Positions 3,955 through 13,102 of a DNA stretch of 13,102 nucleotides are shown here, piece after piece. A program made the translations under genes and the position numbers. Source of the DNA: Gammaproteobacteria bacterium (GTDB lineage Bacteria; Pseudomonadota; Gammaproteobacteria; GRL18); assembly GCA_030632625.1 (NCBI GenBank), contig DAOVUK010000039.1:1-13102 (forward strand). Reading direction: 5' to 3'. Under the pieces are notes generated by a model. It was given only the letters and a program-made list of their open reading frames with translations, did not search any database and was not told where the DNA came from. Each line of letters starts with the position of its first letter. Positions within the stretch are counted from its first letter, which is position 1.

Positions 3955-4008
3955 TTTAAGGAACTGCATGGTAGGCAAAAAGACGGCACCATTATTTCAA
4001 TGTTATGT
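3951..4008 (+). other. attC-like site H (plus-strand orientation)
   Basis: The site aligns over its whole 58 bp with attC B of the other array read on its minus strand: AAGGAACTGCATGG / AGGCAAAAAGACG / GTTATGT against AAGAAAATGCATCGG / AGGCAAAAAGACG / GTTATGT. The R' box is GTTATGT (4002-4008). The partner R'' (about 3951-3957) is decayed. The arms ATGGT and ACCAT around AAAAAGAC form the hairpin. It follows the yoeB remnant, as an attC follows its cassette gene. Confidence 0.7.
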
Positions 4009-4404
4009 TTCATTCAACACTGAAAGCAAATTAAGGTGTTTGACGAATGGCATAAAATCTTTATCTGAAAAAAGCAAGGGAATTTTATTATCAATACAGA
4101 AACTAGCAATAATTACATCTGCTGTTTTTCTAATGGTAATTCCTCTCTTTCTTAATTCACGATAATTATCCGCACATTTAAAAACCATATTTTTACCAAA
4201 CATTTCATACTGTTCTAAAGTGGCTAATGATTTTTTTGCTTTATTGAAATCCTTATCACTTCTAAATCCTTGAAGTATTTCCATTACTATTATGTCACCA
4301 ATAACTATCAAGCCGTCAATAAGGGCAATATCCAACATATTAGTTTCTTTGCTCTCAATTCCATTGAAATAATCAATCCAAATACTGGTATCAACCAGTA
4401 TCAT
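4003..4404 (-). CDS. vapC: VapC-type PIN-domain ribonuclease toxin
   Basis: This is the toxin of a type II VapBC module, a Mg2+-dependent ribonuclease that acts on RNA when not held by VapB. The 133-residue protein opens with MILVDTSIWIDYF, and the acidic PIN residues are visible: Asp5, Glu42 (VMEILQGF), Asp96 (IRKTADVIIAS) and Asp114/Asp116 (LLFSDKDF). Its ATG overlaps the vapB stop by four bases, and a strong ribosome binding site (GGGGAGGGGA) lies inside the end of vapB. The stop codon lies within the R' box of attC H. The pair therefore sits inverted in a cassette bounded by attC sites H and I. It appears intact. Confidence 0.93.
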   Translation of the reverse strand: MILVDTSIWIDYFNGIESKETNMLDIALIDGLIVIGDIIVMEILQGFRSDKDFNKAKKSLATLEQYEMFGKNMVFKCADNYRELRKRGITIRKTADVIIASFCIDNKIPLLFSDKDFMPFVKHLNLLSVLNET

Positions 4405-4605: not shown

Positions 4606-4661
4606 ATGTGTATGTTTGTACGATATATACACATCATATCATGACAAAAAAAACATAACAA
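4606..4661 (-). promoter_or_regulatory. vapBC promoter and palindromic operator
   Basis: On the minus strand a -35 TTGTTA (4661-4656) and a -10 TATGAT (4638-4633) are 17 nt apart. A perfect 8-bp inverted repeat, ATGTGTAT (4606-4613) and ATACACAT (4627-4634), covers the -10 and the expected start of transcription. This fits repression by the VapBC complex. The -35 is formed largely by the R'' box of attC I (ACATAAC at 4653-4659). Confidence 0.65.
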
Positions 4662-4705
4662 GAAAATATCGGAGGCAAAACGTCCCGATGGTTTTGACGT
4701 CAGAG
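4653..4705 (+). other. attC-like site I (plus-strand orientation, R' decayed)
   Basis: The R'' box is ACATAAC (4653-4659). It is followed by AAGAAAATATCGGAGGCAAA and then CGTCCCGATGGTTTT, a palindromic arm pair closely like attC sites B and C. ACATAAC is the exact complement of GTTATGT at the other end of the vapBC cassette in site H, as expected for one cassette. The R' position holds GTCAGAG instead of GTTRRRY, so the site is probably inactive. No sign of a further cassette is seen between it and the prfC terminator. Confidence 0.7.
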
Positions 4706-7531: not shown

Positions 7532-7557
7532 GTACGCCCGACATGGGCATTGACTGA
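7532..7557 (+). mobile_element. 5' remnant of a group II intron in attC F
   Basis: The 26 bases begin GTACGCCCGACATGGGCAT and match the first 26 bases of the intact intron at 10263 at 22 positions. They follow TTGT within an attC, the same target as the intact copy. The rest of the intron and the expected R'' half of the site are absent, and the neighbouring reading frame's stop codon follows at once (7558-7560 on the minus strand). A deletion after insertion is the simplest explanation. Confidence 0.7.
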
Positions 7558-7749
7558 TTAATCATCAAGGTACACAGCTGATGTTTGAAATACTTCTTCT
7601 GGCGTACCATAAAAATCACCATTATCAAATATACTTGGTTCATATTTGTTATGGCTATATGTATAAAAAGCTAAAGTCCATTTTTCTTCATTTCCTTTAT
7701 ATCGCATCCTACAAAGGTGAGTTATATATAAGAAGAATGTAGAAATCAA
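7558..7749 (-). pseudogene. C-terminal fragment of a small cassette-type protein
   Basis: The open frame has 63 codons, but only its second half looks like a real protein: CRMRYKGNEEKW, LAFYTYSHNKYEPS, GDFYGTPEEVFQTSAVYL. I cannot assign it to a named family with certainty. The pattern (Arg-x-x-Tyr-x-Gly, W-x-x-AFY-x-YS, GTPEE) resembles the tail of small conserved proteins of unknown function. Its first 14 or so codons overlap the end of the nuclease frame upstream in another phase, and no ribosome binding site precedes it. It is best read as the 3' end of a gene whose front was lost when it was joined to the nuclease remnant. Confidence 0.5.
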
Positions 7750-8157: not shown

Positions 8158-8237
8158 ATATAACGCATGGCTCAGCCCTTGTCTTTGGCGTTTTTTCAGC
8201 CAAAGACAAGGCCGTCCGCTGGAGCCTCTGGTTAGGC
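8158..8237 (-). other. attC site A
   Basis: Read on the minus strand: R'' GCCTAAC (8231-8237 region), L'' GGCTCCAGC, a 13-bp perfect stem (CCTTGTCTTTGGC / GCCAAAGACAAGG) with a T/A-rich loop, L' GCTGAGCC and R' GTTATAT (8164-8158). L'' has one extra base relative to L', the extrahelical base that sets the recombining strand in integron attC sites. This also fixes the orientation as minus. The stop codon of the zinc-finger antitoxin overlaps R''. Confidence 0.9.
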
Positions 8238-8779: not shown

Positions 8780-8909
8780 GCCTAACATTGTCATAATTTG
8801 GCGCTGGGTCAAGGAAATATGTAATTAAAAAAGACTTTTTTTCACCAAAATTTAAATTTTTTTTAAATATCGCTAAGACCCAGTGATCAAATTCATGACC
8901 TTGTTATGT
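8780..8909 (-). other. attC site E (long type, 130 bp)
   Basis: Read on the minus strand: R'' ACATAAC (8909-8903), arm CATGAATTTGATCACTGGGTC broken by small bulges, a long AT-rich centre, the partner arm GACCCAGCGCCAAATTATG, and R' GTTAGGC (8786-8780). The extra bases are on the R'' side, as in canonical attC sites. ACATAAC complements the GTTATGT box at the other end of the dinJ-yafQ cassette (site B). The length is of the order of the long attC sites of chromosomal integrons. The site is homologous to F. Confidence 0.85.
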
Positions 8910-9520: not shown

Positions 9521-9578
9521 ACATAACGCCAAAATCACCGGAGCGTCTTTTTGCCTCCGATGCATTTTCTTGTTGTGC
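9521..9578 (-). other. attC site B (58 bp)
   Basis: Read on the minus strand: R'' GCACAAC (9578-9572), AAGAAAATGCATCGGAGGC, loop AAAAAGAC, GCTCCGGTGATTTTGGC and R' GTTATGT (9527-9521). The arms AAAATGCATCGGAG and CTCCGGTGATTTT pair, with two extra bases on the R'' side. R'' complements R' of site C (GCACAAC at 10210-10216), marking both ends of the brnT-brnA cassette. It is closely similar to sites C, H and I. Confidence 0.85.
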
Positions 9579-9583
9579 CTGTT

Positions 9584-9853
9584 TTAATTAGAATGAAACT
9601 CTTGTTCAATTTTCTCTGATAAAAATATTTTTAATAATGATTGATAGGGGATGTCACGTTTATTAGCTAATAATTTCAGTTCATCTATCATTATTTCAGG
9701 TAATCTAATAGAGATTTTTTTTGTTGATGGTTTAAGGTTTGGTAAGATTGTTTTTTTTGACTTAGACCAATCAATATATTCTGTTGATTCAGAAGTAGTC
9801 CAAAATTCTCTTTCTTCATCTTCTGTTTTAAAGTTTGGTAATTTTTTTTTCAT
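9584..9853 (-). CDS. brnA: BrnA-type (CopG-like) antitoxin
   Basis: The 89-residue protein contains PNFKTEDEEREFWTTSESTEYIDW in its first part and LPNLKPSTKKISIRLPEIMI followed by LKLLANKRDIPYQSLLKIFL. This is the BrnA/CopG-antitoxin pattern: an N-terminal toxin-binding segment (with the E-EREFW motif) and a C-terminal ribbon-helix-helix with the PYQSL turn. It follows brnT with a four-base overlap (ATGA at 9853-9850), the usual order for this family. It stops just before the R'' box of attC B. Confidence 0.9.
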   Translation of the reverse strand: MKKKLPNFKTEDEEREFWTTSESTEYIDWSKSKKTILPNLKPSTKKISIRLPEIMIDELKLLANKRDIPYQSLLKIFLSEKIEQEFHSN

Positions 9854-10143
9854 TTTAGATATACCTCTTTTTCTTTTTTACTCATATCTCTTGCTGAAAT
9901 AACACGGATAAAATCATCTCTAATAGTGCTAACAATAAATAAGAGCCTACCACTATCTGTTTGCCCTAAAGAATAATAACGAATCTCAAGTTGAGAATGT
10001 TTTTCATCATCACCAATAATCAGGGGTTGATTAAAAAATATTTGCTCGCATTCAGATTTACTGACTTGGTGTAAAATCCAATTTTTTTCTGAATTTCCAA
10101 TATCCCACTGGAAACCAACACAATTTAGTATTTTATGAGTCAT
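9850..10143 (-). CDS. brnT: BrnT-family ribonuclease toxin
   Basis: BrnT toxins have a RelE-like fold and inhibit translation by RNA cleavage. From the ATG at 10143 the protein has 97 residues and matches the family along its whole length: FQWDIGNSEKNWILHQVSKSECEQIF, IGDDEK, EIRYYSLGQTDSGRLLFIVSTIRDDFIRVISARDMSKKEK. The conserved GxTxxGRLLF and RVISAR blocks are intact. The frame also opens two codons earlier at TTG (10149), but that codon lies in the operator, so the ATG is preferred. No ribosome binding site precedes it. The promoter position suggests a leaderless message. Confidence 0.92.
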   Translation of the reverse strand: MTHKILNCVGFQWDIGNSEKNWILHQVSKSECEQIFFNQPLIIGDDEKHSQLEIRYYSLGQTDSGRLLFIVSTIRDDFIRVISARDMSKKEKEVYLK

Positions 10144-10178
10144 GAGCAATGTATATCATGTAGATATACATAAATCAA
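10143..10178 (-). promoter_or_regulatory. brnTA promoter and palindromic operator
   Basis: On the minus strand TTGATT (10178-10173) and TATACA (10155-10150) are 17 nt apart. The perfect 9-bp inverted repeat ATGTATATC (10149-10157) and GATATACAT (10163-10171) covers the spacer and the -10, fitting autorepression by BrnA. Transcription would begin about at the A of the ATG (10143). Confidence 0.65.
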
Positions 10179-10209: not shown

Positions 10210-10262
10210 GCACAACGCCAAAATCATCGGGGCGTCTTTTTGCCTCCGATGCATTTTCTTGT
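10210..10262 (-). other. attC site C, main part (split by the group II intron)
   Basis: The site has R' GCACAAC on the plus strand (10210-10216), arms AAAATCATCGG and CCGATGCATTTT, and then CTTGT, where the intron begins. Joining 10262 to 12316 gives a 58-bp site whose R'' reads GTTATAT on the plus strand. This equals the length of sites B and H. The reconstituted R'' complements ATATAAC at 13041-13047, the other end of the hicAB cassette. Confidence 0.88.
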
Positions 10263-10846
10263 GTACGCCCGTCATGGGCATAAACTAATGGGGTGAAAGT
10301 CCCCTGTAGGAGGATCACCGCTATGTAAATTGTATCCAACCATTTTAGCGACAACTACTAGCAGAAGGCAAGGGCAAATCCGCGAGGAGCTGTCCGAAGG
10401 AAGCCCAATGCAAAACGATGAGCCAATGGACAAAAACATCCTATAAGGCCTGGCCTGAAGGTGAGTTTGCACCAGAAGACGAAACCGTGTGATTCAACGG
10501 GTAGGGTAAAGGATGTGGTTGTGTCGTGAAAGTTTATGTTCTTATCCGGGGAGATCTGTACAACATTGCAGCAGCACCATAAGTTAAACCACGGTACGTG
10601 AGGATTGCCGTTTAAACGCCTCGGCCTGGCAGCGCTATCACTGGCAGGAGCCTGAGCCACAGGGACACAAAACTCGATAAAGCTTATGAATCCGTGTTGT
10701 AGCGCCTTTTCAGGAGACTGGGACGGTGATTGTACAGAAGTCAGCCGAGGTCATTGTAGCCAAATGCCTGATTTAATCGTCAGGACACGGCGCCAACAGT
10801 AGGTGCTTTAGGCAAAGGACTGAACATTTAACCAGAGGAGTGAGTG

Positions 10847-12244
10847 ATGACTTACTTGAATGCATCGCAATCTCAGAGCAGAGATGATGAAATTCAGCGT
10901 ACAGGCAGAGAACCCGCCTTAAATGACTTCTTGTTTCAAGGAAAGTTATTAGAACAGGTATTATTACCACAAAACCTCCATAGAGCCTGGAAACGGGTTC
11001 GGAGTAATAAAGGTGCACCGGGTATTGATGGCATGACCATTGAGCAATTCCCTGATTTTATCAAGGAATACTGGCAGGATATTATTCTTCCCAGTTTGCG
11101 TGATGGACGTTATCAACCCACCGCAGTGAGACGAGCCATTATCCGCAAGCCGGATGGTGGGGAACGGCTGTTGGGAATTCCAATTATCTTAGATCGATGG
11201 ATTATGCAATCCATTGCACAAGTACTGTCACCGATGTATGAGCCTGACTTTTCTGAATTCAGCTATGGATTCAGACCAGAAAGATCTCAGCATATGGCAA
11301 TAGAACAGGTGCGTAAAAGCATATCTGAAGGTCGAAAGATAGCTGTGGATGTGGACTTGTCTAAGTTCTTTGACCGGGTTGACCATGATTATCTCATGAG
11401 TAAACTGGGACTTAAAATAAAAGACAAAGCCCTGATGCAACTGCTTGGAAAATACTTGCGTGCAGGTATCATGGATTCAGATGGACAATACTTTGAAAGT
11501 AGGATCGGCGTACCGCAGGGAAGCCCGTTATCGCCACTTTTATCAAATATTGTTCTTGATGAACTGGATAAAGAACTGGAACGAAGAGGTCATCGGTTTG
11601 CAAGATATGCGGATGACTTCATCATTTTAGTTCGCAGCCAAAGAGCCGGAGAAAGGGTCTTAAATAGCGTGACAAACTATGTTCAGAAACAGCTGAAATT
11701 GCAGGTTAATGAACAGAAAAGTCAGGTTGTCCCGATTAAGGAAAGTAAATTCCTCGGTTTCAGCTTCAAAGGAAAGTGGCTGGTTTGGCACCCTAAGGCA
11801 CTGAATCAATTTCAATGGAATGTAAGACGATTGACGAAGCGCACAAAAGGGATATCTATGGAAACCCGGATCAAGGAATTGAACCAATACCTGACAGGAT
11901 GGATCCATTACTTCGCCTAAAGCGCCTACTTTTGGTGGCATTGCTGATCAGTACCAGTTGTGTGTCGAACTCGATAGCTGGATAAGACGGCGAATACGAC
12001 AGTGCTATTGGAAACAATGGCGTAAAGTCAAAACCACCAAAAGTAGGCCCCATGAGGGGAGGTAAGGAGCCTGTTAAGGCTGGGAGTGAAAGAAAAGCTA
12101 GCTGTTTTCTGTGGCATCTCCAGCAAGAGCTATTGGCATAGTTCTAAAACAGAAGGGATTAATAAAGGACTCTCTAATAAATACCTGAAGGATTTAGGAC
12201 TCATCTCTATTAAAGAGAGATGGGTGGCAATTCATTACGGTTAG
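10847..12244 (+). pseudogene. ltrA: Group II intron reverse transcriptase/maturase, frame-disrupted
   Basis: From the ATG at 10847 (AGAGGAG 6 nt upstream) the frame runs to a stop at 11918-11920 and gives 357 residues. All reverse transcriptase blocks are present: RSNKGAPGIDG, SYGFRP, VDVDLSKFFDRVDHD, GVPQGSPLSPLLSNI and the catalytic YADD near residues 254-257. The maturase (X) domain begins (FLGFSF, LTGWIHYFA) and then breaks. Its next part (IADQYQLCVELDSWIRRRIR and QCYWKQWRKVKTT) lies in the +1 frame from about 11919 to 12060. The last part (LLRLGVKEKL, KSYWHSSKTEG, LKDLGLISIKERWVAIHYG) is back in the first frame to the stop at 12242-12244. No C-terminal endonuclease domain is present, which suits attC-type introns. 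Confidence 0.9.
11924..12048. repeat. Perfect 15-bp inverted repeat around the IEP frame change
   Basis: GCCTACTTTTGGTGG (11924-11938) and CCACCAAAAGTAGGC (12034-12048) are exact reverse complements, 95 nt apart. Both copies sit at the two points where the maturase reading frame changes phase, while the 95 nt between encode conserved maturase residues in the shifted frame. Confidence 0.95.
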
Positions 12245-12246
12245 TG

Positions 12247-12315
12247 AACCGCCCATTGCGGACCCGCATGATGGGTGGTGTGGGGCTGTGGGAGAGAAAC
12301 CCACGGCTACCCGAT
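12247..12315 (+). ncRNA. Group II intron domains V and VI
   Basis: Domain V reads ACCGCCCATTGCG (12248-12260), GACC loop, then CGCATGATGGGTGGT (12265-12279). The two arms pair, with a 2-nt bulge in the 3' strand as in all group II domain V hairpins; the catalytic triad position reads CGC. Domain VI follows: GTGGG (12288-12292) pairs with CCCAC (12300-12304), with an unpaired A near the 3' base as candidate branch point. The intron ends CCCGAT at 12315. Confidence 0.85.
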
Positions 12316-12340
12316 TATATTTTATTTGAATTAGAGACGG

Positions 12341-12673
12341 TTAAATATGGACTGCTTTATCAAGAACCTCAGCAACCCATTGATTAATACTTTTTCCTTG
12401 AACTTTTGATGCTGTTGCAACTGCAGCATGAATATCTGGATTAATACGTAGCATTAAATTTCCAGAATAAGGTTTTTGTGCTGGTCTACCTGTTCGTTCA
12501 CTAACCTCAAGATAATGCTCAACTGATTCATGAAATGCTGTTTCAAGATCATCAACATTGGAACCATGAAATGAAACAATATCATCAATGCCAGCTAAAC
12601 GACCAACAAAGATACGATCATCTTCATCAAATTCAATTCGTGCTATGTAATTTTTGTATTTCATCATATTCAT
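12341..12673 (-). CDS. hicB: HicB-family antitoxin
   Basis: The 110-residue protein has the HicB partial RNase H-like fold at its N-terminus (YIARIEFDEDDRIFVGRLAG, VSFHGSNVDDLETAFHESVEHYLE) and a C-terminal ribbon-helix-helix (LMLRINPDIHAAVATAS, GKSINQWVAEVLDKAV) that should bind the operator in front of hicA. Its ATG overlaps the hicA stop by four bases. A second possible start lies three codons later (MKYKNYI). The stop lies 25 nt from the intron's 3' end; the intervening sequence includes the R'' remainder of attC C. Confidence 0.92.
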   Translation of the reverse strand: MNMMKYKNYIARIEFDEDDRIFVGRLAGIDDIVSFHGSNVDDLETAFHESVEHYLEVSERTGRPAQKPYSGNLMLRINPDIHAAVATASKVQGKSINQWVAEVLDKAVHI

Positions 12674-12924
12674 TGTGTGATACCAGCTTTTTCCAAAAAT
12701 TCACGTGCTGATTTTATTCTATATCTCAGAGCCTCTTTGTTTGGATGAGGACGGTGAAAATCTGCACGTTTATCATTAAGAATAAAAGTTACAGCAGAAC
12801 CATTCCCTTCGTCTTTTTCTGCCCCTAAAGCGATAAACAAGGCTTCTATTTTTCTCCATTCCAAATTGCCATTAACAGGATCAGTGAAAATTACCTGAAG
12901 AGTTTTTCTGTGCTTGTTATTCAT
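12670..12924 (-). CDS. hicA: HicA-family mRNA interferase toxin
   Basis: HicA toxins are small double-stranded-RNA-binding-fold ribonucleases neutralised by HicB. From the ATG at 12924 the protein has 84 residues: NNKHRKTLQVIFTDPVNGNLEW, KIEALFIALGAEKDEGNGSAVTF and RADFHRPHPNKEALRYRIKSAREFLEKAGI. These match the variant in which the usual GSH-type segment is replaced by G-GSAV and the FHRPHP motif is prominent. A longer frame opens at GTG (12963), but that codon is in the loop of the operator palindrome, so the ATG is preferred. No ribosome binding site is visible. The gene is first in the pair, as usual for hicAB. Confidence 0.9.
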   Translation of the reverse strand: MNNKHRKTLQVIFTDPVNGNLEWRKIEALFIALGAEKDEGNGSAVTFILNDKRADFHRPHPNKEALRYRIKSAREFLEKAGITQ

Positions 12925-12979
12925 ACAAGTAATATTAGCACAAAATGCTGAGTTTGCAATCACATAATGATTGCAAACT
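12925..12979 (-). promoter_or_regulatory. hicAB promoter and 11-bp palindromic operator
   Basis: The perfect inverted repeat AGTTTGCAATC (12951-12961) and GATTGCAAACT (12969-12979), with a 7-nt spacer, is a likely HicB operator. On the minus strand its proximal half supplies a -35 TTGCAA (12959-12954), followed after 16 nt by the -10 TAATAT (12937-12932). Transcription would begin one or two bases before the hicA ATG, so the message may be leaderless. Positions 12980-13040 show nothing further that I can support. Confidence 0.65.
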
Positions 12980-13040: not shown

Positions 13041-13102
13041 ATATAACGTCGGCATGAACGGTCAAATTGTCATTGGCGTTTTTCAGCCAATGACAATTTG
13101 AT
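13041..13102 (-). other. attC site D (cut by the window edge)
   Basis: On the plus strand the R' box ATATAAC (13041-13047) is followed by a long hairpin: AAATTGTCATTGGC (13064-13077), GTTTTTCA loop, GCCAATGACAATTT. The stem-loop plan is that of attC A (GGCGTTTTTTCAGCC centre). The R'' side lies beyond the window. It marks the far end of the hicAB cassette. Confidence 0.75.

Follow-up and report, generated by a model that had tools for sequence, protein, structure and literature searches.

The window, that is, the whole stretch of DNA that was analysed, is 13,102 bases long and makes up the entire contig C92 of an assembly of 3.36 Mb in 533 contigs (82% complete). Its right part carries an array of attC-like sites and cassettes, chiefly of the toxin-antitoxin type, and one attC of the array is interrupted. 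The array features that matter here are listed below.

7532-7558, plus strand: what is left of a second IIC intron, 27 nt of its 5' end, following TTGT^ in a further attC-like site of the array, with the same letters as the intron 5' ends in genomes G020 and G021.
9521-9578, minus strand: intact 58-nt attC, neighbour of the interrupted one, recognised by direct repeat and fold and used as the model of the empty site.
9584-10149, minus strand: BrnT/BrnA-type toxin-antitoxin cassette (PF04365, PF12441), left of the interrupted attC.
10210-10262, minus strand: left part of the interrupted attC (R'-L'-loop-L''-start of R''), which folds with 12316-12320; 10211-10262 is a direct repeat of 9522-9573 (94% identity).
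12316-12320, minus strand: rest of the R'' box of the interrupted attC (TATAT), one of the two ends of the hicBA cassette.
12341-12963, minus strand: HicB/HicA toxin-antitoxin cassette (PF05534, PF07927), right of the interrupted attC.
13041-13102, minus strand: attC cut off by the contig end; it forms the far end of the hicBA cassette, and its ATATAAC pairs with the cassette's other end.

The BrnA model scores under the NCBIfam cut-off in the cassette at 9584-10149. Further left, the attC-like sites at 3958-4010 and 4646-4700 are oriented opposite to the rest of the array and flank a PIN-domain cassette (PF01850). ORF 7709-8134 matches the REase-ARP restriction-endonuclease family only at positions 5-130 of 270, and it is probably a truncated gene inside a cassette. 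The array would be a CALIN, an attC cluster without integrase, if no intI lay nearby. No intI match was found on the 13.1-kb window contig; because the contig ends inside an attC, a linked intI may lie beyond it.

The interrupting element has the following parts.

10263-12315, plus strand: group IIC intron of the attC lineage, 2,053 nt, beginning GTACGCCC and ending CTACCCGAT, assigned from Rfam, from ends common to relatives and from the RT tree.
10376-10540, plus strand: match to Rfam group-II-D1D4-3 (RF02001, 120 bits, E 8.8e-25), the 5' domains of the ribozyme.
10430-10433, plus strand: candidate EBS1 (ACAA) opposite the IBS1 TTGT, chosen by the position of the ACAA stretch, with putative pairing.
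10844-11920, plus strand: RT ORF of 358 aa.
12248-12279, plus strand: domain V-like helix in the fold of 12241-12315 (-38.2 kcal/mol, z -4.5).
12281-12313, plus strand: domain VI-like helix in the same fold.

A second Rfam family, D1D4-1, also matches the intron (44-51.5 bits), and no domain V match was obtained from Rfam within the intron, even at a lax threshold. The DV/DVI-like helices precede the ACCCGAT intron end, and the unpaired A 12309 in the DVI-like helix, 7 nt from the 3' end, is a candidate branch point. A group II ribozyme core is therefore recognised from the D1D4 families together with the DV/DVI-like fold. The intron RT/maturase matches TIGR04416 with 369 bits. Among PDB entries it scores best with the GsI-IIC RT (324 bits), then with 7uim (277 bits) and 5hhj/5hhl (258/253 bits), which we take to be IIC, versus 153 bits for LtrA (presumably IIA) and 120 bits for 6me0 (presumably IIB). 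No endonuclease family occurs among the NCBIfam and Pfam matches of the 358-aa ORF. An RT/maturase without endonuclease and nearest to IIC RTs, on top of the ribozyme matches, agrees with the IIC kinship that the sequence-only reading had suggested.

That reading had also placed the ends at 10263 and 12315. These ends recur in relatives, but from this sequence alone they carry an ambiguity of one base, as 10262 and 12315 are both T and 10262-12314 fits equally well. The start at 10263 was chosen, since group II introns have G as their first base. The junctions were compared with regular expressions that assume the first ~18 and last ~11 intron bases, and with BLAST of the ends, which does not. 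Of 21 distinct 5' junctions, which include two from the window and five from genome G003, 15 read TTGT, 2 TGGT, 1 TTGG and 3.TTG, so six are not TTGT; the three.TTG junctions would be explained if the intron had inserted one base more to the left. T comes next in all 20 distinct 3' junctions, of which one is from the window. The proposed target TTGT^T is supported. The plus strand is the bottom strand of the interrupted attC, a call based on the AACGCC...TTGTT order, which we take to be that of an attC, and on hicBA and brnTA lying on the minus strand. The intron therefore sits at TTGT^T of an attC bottom strand and runs opposite to the cassettes, as had been claimed.

When 10210-10262 and 12316-12320 were joined by script, a site of 58 nt was obtained, as long as the intact attC at 9521-9578. 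Past TTGT, the 9.5-kb copy of the direct repeat continues with TGTGCC and the 10.2-kb copy with GTACGCCCG. The joined plus strand folds as single-stranded DNA into an attC-like hairpin (-10.4 kcal/mol, z -3.0), which none of 200 shuffles equals. The intact neighbour gives a similar but weaker fold (-7.2 kcal/mol, z -1.3, equalled by 20 of 200 shuffles); because of this weak fold of an intact attC, folding on its own is modest evidence for the joined site. The 58-bp attC predicted on joining 10262 to 12316 is borne out by its length, by the 94% repeat and by its fold. "Perfect" was too strong a word for it, since its outer 7-mers do not pair with each other, as is usual for an attC within an array.

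The two ends of an integron cassette are complementary. This was found for the three cassettes to the left of the interrupted site, with end pairs GTTAGGCG at 8231 and CGCCTAAC ending at 8786, GTTATGTG at 8903 and CACATAAC ending at 9527, and, as a separate third pair, GTTGTGC at 9572 and GCACAAC ending at 10216. The joint GTTATAT is the reverse complement of ATATAAC at 13041-13047, so the pairing noted earlier between the R'' box and the far end of the hicBA cassette is present. The hicBA cassette obeys the rule only when the intron is left out.

The joined site and the hicBA cassette were searched in 40 genomes, including the genome of the window, with up to 12 candidates scored per genome, and 16 of the 40 gave a match. 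Among the fetched loci, 24 rows match the joined attC. In two of them, the window and G003:C200 (L103), an intron occupies the site at this same TTGT. Sixteen rows from relatives cross the joint without an intron, and 13 of these read TTGTT or TGGTT, for example ..TTTTCTTGTTATGCC in G012 and ..TTTTTTTGTTAGGTG in G007; the remaining rows are four other sites of the window's own genome and two partial matches. The attC family, which had been called unusual, is not so in this genus: many relatives have copies free of any interruption. The relatives of the hicBA cassette in G010 (94%) and G018 (82%) match within the cassette only and have different surroundings, with no attC match beside them in the fetched stretches. 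The suggested search for empty sites therefore returned attCs of the family that are intact across the joint, but none of the genomes searched showed an orthologous empty site flanked by these two cassettes; such an orthologue is expected to read TTGTTATAT.

In an RT tree of 53 rows (midpoint root), the window falls in a 33-row clade (99/91) together with the RTs of three introns from class 1-type integrons. This clade is nested in a 44-row clade (100/98), separate from nine Bacillota/Bacteroidota rows. Within the 33-row clade, the window lies in one 16-row branch and the three plasmid integron introns lie in a second branch of 16 rows; insertion targets were read for the rows other than the database (P) rows and the nine outer rows. 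The plasmid introns lie in integrons, antisense to resistance cassettes, with intI1 annotated in two cases and "integron integrase" in the third, and their RTs are ~57-58% identical to P0003. P0003 is an intact RT of 449 aa, 90% identical to the window RT, and its source is named Candidatus Thiodiazotropha sp. (ex Lucinom...).

A set of 34 named or plasmid relatives was assembled from 31 of 80 loci (the best 80 of 568, from an alignment-based contig scan) and the three plasmid loci. In the 26 relatives with a recognisable 5' end, the intron follows TTGT (22), TGGT (3) or TTGG (1), and by eye the junctions lie mostly behind attC-like hairpins. The window RT thus falls with the RTs of introns that insert into attC, judged by eye, and the kinship with attC-targeting IIC introns drawn by the sequence-only reading is supported by the tree. 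From the tree, the relatives' junctions and the antisense plasmid integron introns, the window element is, judged by sequence, a group IIC intron of the previously described IIC-attC kind. By eye, introns of the window's family also sit in attC-like sites of several same-genus and same-family genomes. At G007:C11:81023-81264, the first 242 nt of an intron (95% identity to the window intron) follow TTGG in an attC-like site and are then followed by unrelated sequence.

The window copy of the intron is broken. Its RT ORF has 358 aa, compared with 445-449 aa in P0003-P0006, and the GIIM profile covers only 2-39 of 80, so that the maturase domain ends half way. Alignment of the DNA with one fully intact relative, the intron of G012 (1,974 nt), located three insertions.

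10793-10814, plus strand: REP-like insertion 1, CCAACAGTAGG and a hairpin, 22 nt; a 22-nt gap in the intact G012 intron and a dispersed repeat. The MAFFT gap lies a few nt further left, and 10793-10814 fits the flanks better.
11914-11935, minus strand: REP-like insertion 2, CCAAAAGTAGG and a hairpin, 22 nt; a 22-nt gap in the G012 intron.
12037-12059, plus strand: REP-like insertion 3, CCAAAAGTAGG and a CCCC-ATGA-GGGG hairpin, 23 nt; a 23-nt gap in the G012 intron.

All three units consist of CCAA[AC]AGTAGG followed by a small hairpin. Two of them lie within the RT gene and one cuts the maturase domain: insertion 2 brings a stop into the gene after IHYFA, and insertion 3 is a second frameshift. 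The two coding units are absent from G012 and from P0003-P0006, and G012 lacks all three. The window and G012 introns also differ by further indels, a 15-nt one and several that span 1-3 nt. With two units in the RT/maturase gene, the window copy appears unable to make its own full maturase and would have lost its mobility. Its splicing probably fails without help from another copy. Some activity may remain in the truncated RT, or a second copy could supply the function in trans.

The units are dispersed. The unit pattern has 43 matches in the window's own genome, a few of them overlapping (0 in the reversed control), and 71 in G009 (control 1), where the unit of insertion 3 recurs at many places, and it is present in 15 of the 40 genomes. 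With up to 3 mismatches, the insertion-2 pattern has 14 matches in the own genome (control 1). The stems vary in step (CCCC/GGGG, CGCC/GGCG, CACC/GGTG, CTCT/AGAG). With GTAG beside a palindrome, dispersal and compensatory stem changes, the units fit, by sequence, GTAG-tagged REP-like elements. The surroundings were examined for 42 units from 40 fetched stretches (32 own, 8 from G009; several with short flanks), a set that excludes the units of the window and of intI. For the 41 units with a two-sided flank, none lies in a frame of at least 100 codons that is open on both sides. Translational bypassing of the units was considered and dropped, because the units examined elsewhere do not lie inside long genes. 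Four Y1 transposase loci occur in the own genome (82% complete assembly), and no unit was found in their fetched flanks. By eye, many units in loci L279-L318 sit within larger repeats, for example CTTCCCCCTT...AAGGGGGAAG hairpins, and frequently at the hairpin tip.

The same kind of unit was found in integron integrase genes.

G000:C280:1954 and 2312-2334: REP-like units in the intI of the window's own genome.
G012:C100:2302-2325: REP-like unit in intI.
G003:C50:676-699: REP-like unit in intI.

The integrase on contig C280 scores 317 bits, over the cut-off, and its best PDB match is IntI4 (2a3v, 227 bits). One of its units is in frame and adds 7 residues relative to IntI4 and a XerA, and the second shifts the frame directly after RHSF. 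The earlier statement that no integrase is in view holds for the window, but the same genome carries this broken one. RHSF could be read in 10 intI loci, and in three of them (own genome, G012, G003) a unit follows right behind, which suggests recurrent insertion at one codon. By eye the G003 intI is nearer another intI type, and this type is without the unit in G007 and G010.

In one relative, the intron ends occur far more often. G003 belongs to the same genus (~2.9 Mb, 99% complete), and it alone was followed copy by copy. Matches to the first 80-99 nt of the intron were found at 98-99% identity in at least 40 places (40 of 58 candidates scored), and the last 84-116 nt at 91-94% identity in at least 40 places (40 of 53 candidates scored); 40 is a lower bound because only 40 of the 58 and 53 candidates were scored. 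All 40 upstream flanks differ from each other and end in TTGT, and all 40 downstream flanks differ and begin with T. The contigs end within the intron, and the interior found consists of the last ~240 nt only. The RT tail on G003:C275 is identical to P0003 at 56 of 56 residues. Judging by this genus-mate, the host of the window is presumably a gammaproteobacterium close to Candidatus Thiodiazotropha. Up to 7 candidates per genome were scored for intron ends across the genomes, so other multi-copy genomes could be missed.

Judged by eye, one of the G003 sites is an attC (L126) and three are terminator-like (L258, L117, L059). The best upstream hairpins have a median of -10.8 kcal/mol, versus -9.1 kcal/mol at 400 control TTGTT sites (one-sided p 0.026). 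When these four sites are left out, the medians are -9.95 versus -9.15 kcal/mol (p 0.18). The four were picked after the energies had been seen, so a weak residual hairpin preference is possible. At 14 comparator sites (integron or attC-like, occupied by other introns) the median is ~-20, with a range from -2.5 to -34 that overlaps G003; the energy measure is crude, and some attC sites fall within the G003 range. The six bases before TTGT in G003 are T-rich (3.4 versus 2.0 T on average). Frames of at least 100 open codons run into 16 of the 40 upstream flanks (7 sense, 9 antisense; 0.5% in letter-shuffled flanks) and into 20 of the 40 downstream flanks (11 sense, 9 antisense). A beta-CASP ribonuclease-like gene ends with Beta-Casp positions 1-90 at L114 and resumes with 93-120 at L144, and residues of TTHA0252 run to 321 on one side and from 325 on the other; L114 and L144 are presumably the two sides of one insertion that splits this gene. 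A GC-skew bias of the insertions was not detected in the 5' flanks (23 of 40 positive, binomial p 0.43, Wilcoxon p 0.08) or the 3' flanks (26 of 40, p 0.08 and 0.07).

Taken together, the best explanation of the window, at a probability of about 93%, is an IIC-attC intron that retrohomed into an attC and was later broken by three REP-like units. The ends (to one base), the target, the orientation, the lineage and the insertions relative to an intact intron are read from the sequence, and we infer the insertion pathway, the loss of mobility and the movement of the units. The intron would have retrohomed into the single-stranded, folded bottom strand of the attC between the BrnT/BrnA and HicB/HicA cassettes. 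Its RNA would pair a short EBS1, for which ACAA is the candidate, with TTGT, and the attC hairpin would replace the missing second exon contact, as it does in IIC-attC introns. Three units with GTAG and a hairpin would have entered the intron later, two of them in the RT/maturase gene, presumably moved by a REP transposase.

The units might instead be native to the intron, as a ribozyme variant or through recoding or bypass of the ORF, so that the intron would still be autonomous. The RT is indeed well conserved after each unit (84% identity to P0003 over 449 residues with stops read through), which means that the decay is young or that selection is present. However, like units occur dozens of times elsewhere in the genome, the intact relatives lack them (the two coding units in G012 and P0003-P0006, all three in G012), and two units bring a stop and frameshifts, which together make native units highly improbable. 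It is about as unlikely that the element stands outside the attC lineage, as an IIC intron that generally targets terminators and entered this attC accidentally. Its relatives in G003 do use terminator-like and other sites, but the RT tree groups the window with integron introns, the same-family introns of several same-genus and same-family genomes sit by eye in attC-like sites, and a second attC-like site in the window holds an intron 5' remnant. Concerning G003, contig ends within the intron, with the interior limited to the last ~240 nt, could suggest an assembly artefact rather than separate copies. We give this little credit: 40 different upstream and 40 different downstream flanks join the intron at the same base, all with TTGT or T, one gene appears split over two such contigs, and a short-read assembler is expected to break ~80-99 nt into a multi-copy repeat.

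With separate copies preferred, we lean towards the view, drawn by computation from one fragmented assembly, that an attC-specific group IIC lineage lost its need for a hairpin and invaded G003 at no fewer than 40 TTGT^T sites, some of them in genes. The window intron itself is of a described kind; what we read as new is the G003 spread, in which little or no hairpin is involved. In the literature searched, no paper pairs Thiodiazotropha with a group II intron, and none of the listed titles and abstract openings describes such an intron spread. The main text of PMC9938160, on the streamlined symbiont 'Aeq1' (2.9-3.2 Mb), makes no mention of mobile elements, transposition or introns. If true, a IIC intron can invade genomes with a need for only about five bases and T-rich DNA. 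Its attC-bound and dispersed relatives would offer a natural comparison for testing directly how the DNA hairpin shapes target choice by IIC introns. If confirmed, intron spread would be part of genome change in a symbiont, probably of a clam. The window copy, in turn, would illustrate one way in which integron introns can die, with an intron RT and an integrase that both carry like tiny repeats.

Among known systems, the units resemble GTAG-tagged REP elements, which have stems of 5-13 bp (PMC3733652). They share GTAG beside a short hairpin, alternative complementary stem bases, dispersal and occurrence in some genes. In contrast to those elements, the stem of the units is only 3-4 bp, a constant CCAA[ACG]A stands ahead of GTAG, and no REP-flanked transposase gene was found for them.

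In published work, bacterial-C introns sit chiefly directly behind terminators (PMC8919778), IIC introns target terminators or, less commonly, attC (PMC4424553), and the TTGT/T site, the bottom-strand orientation and insertion into CALINs and TA-rich arrays are already in print for IIC-attC introns (PMC7923331). The window intron agrees with IIC-attC introns (S.ma.I2 and kin; introns of class 1 integrons) in the GTACGCCC 5' end, the attC target TTGT^T on the bottom strand, the antisense orientation and the RT clade. It differs from them in that its RT is on its own branch, among introns of uncultured bacteria, its copy is broken by REP-like units, and a related intron has spread outside attC in G003. 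Terminator-targeting IIC introns share the short target and the hairpin that replaces IBS2, and three G003 copies look terminator-like (L059, L117, L258). Unlike these introns, 36 of the 40 G003 sites show no significant excess of hairpins, and some copies lie in open frames.
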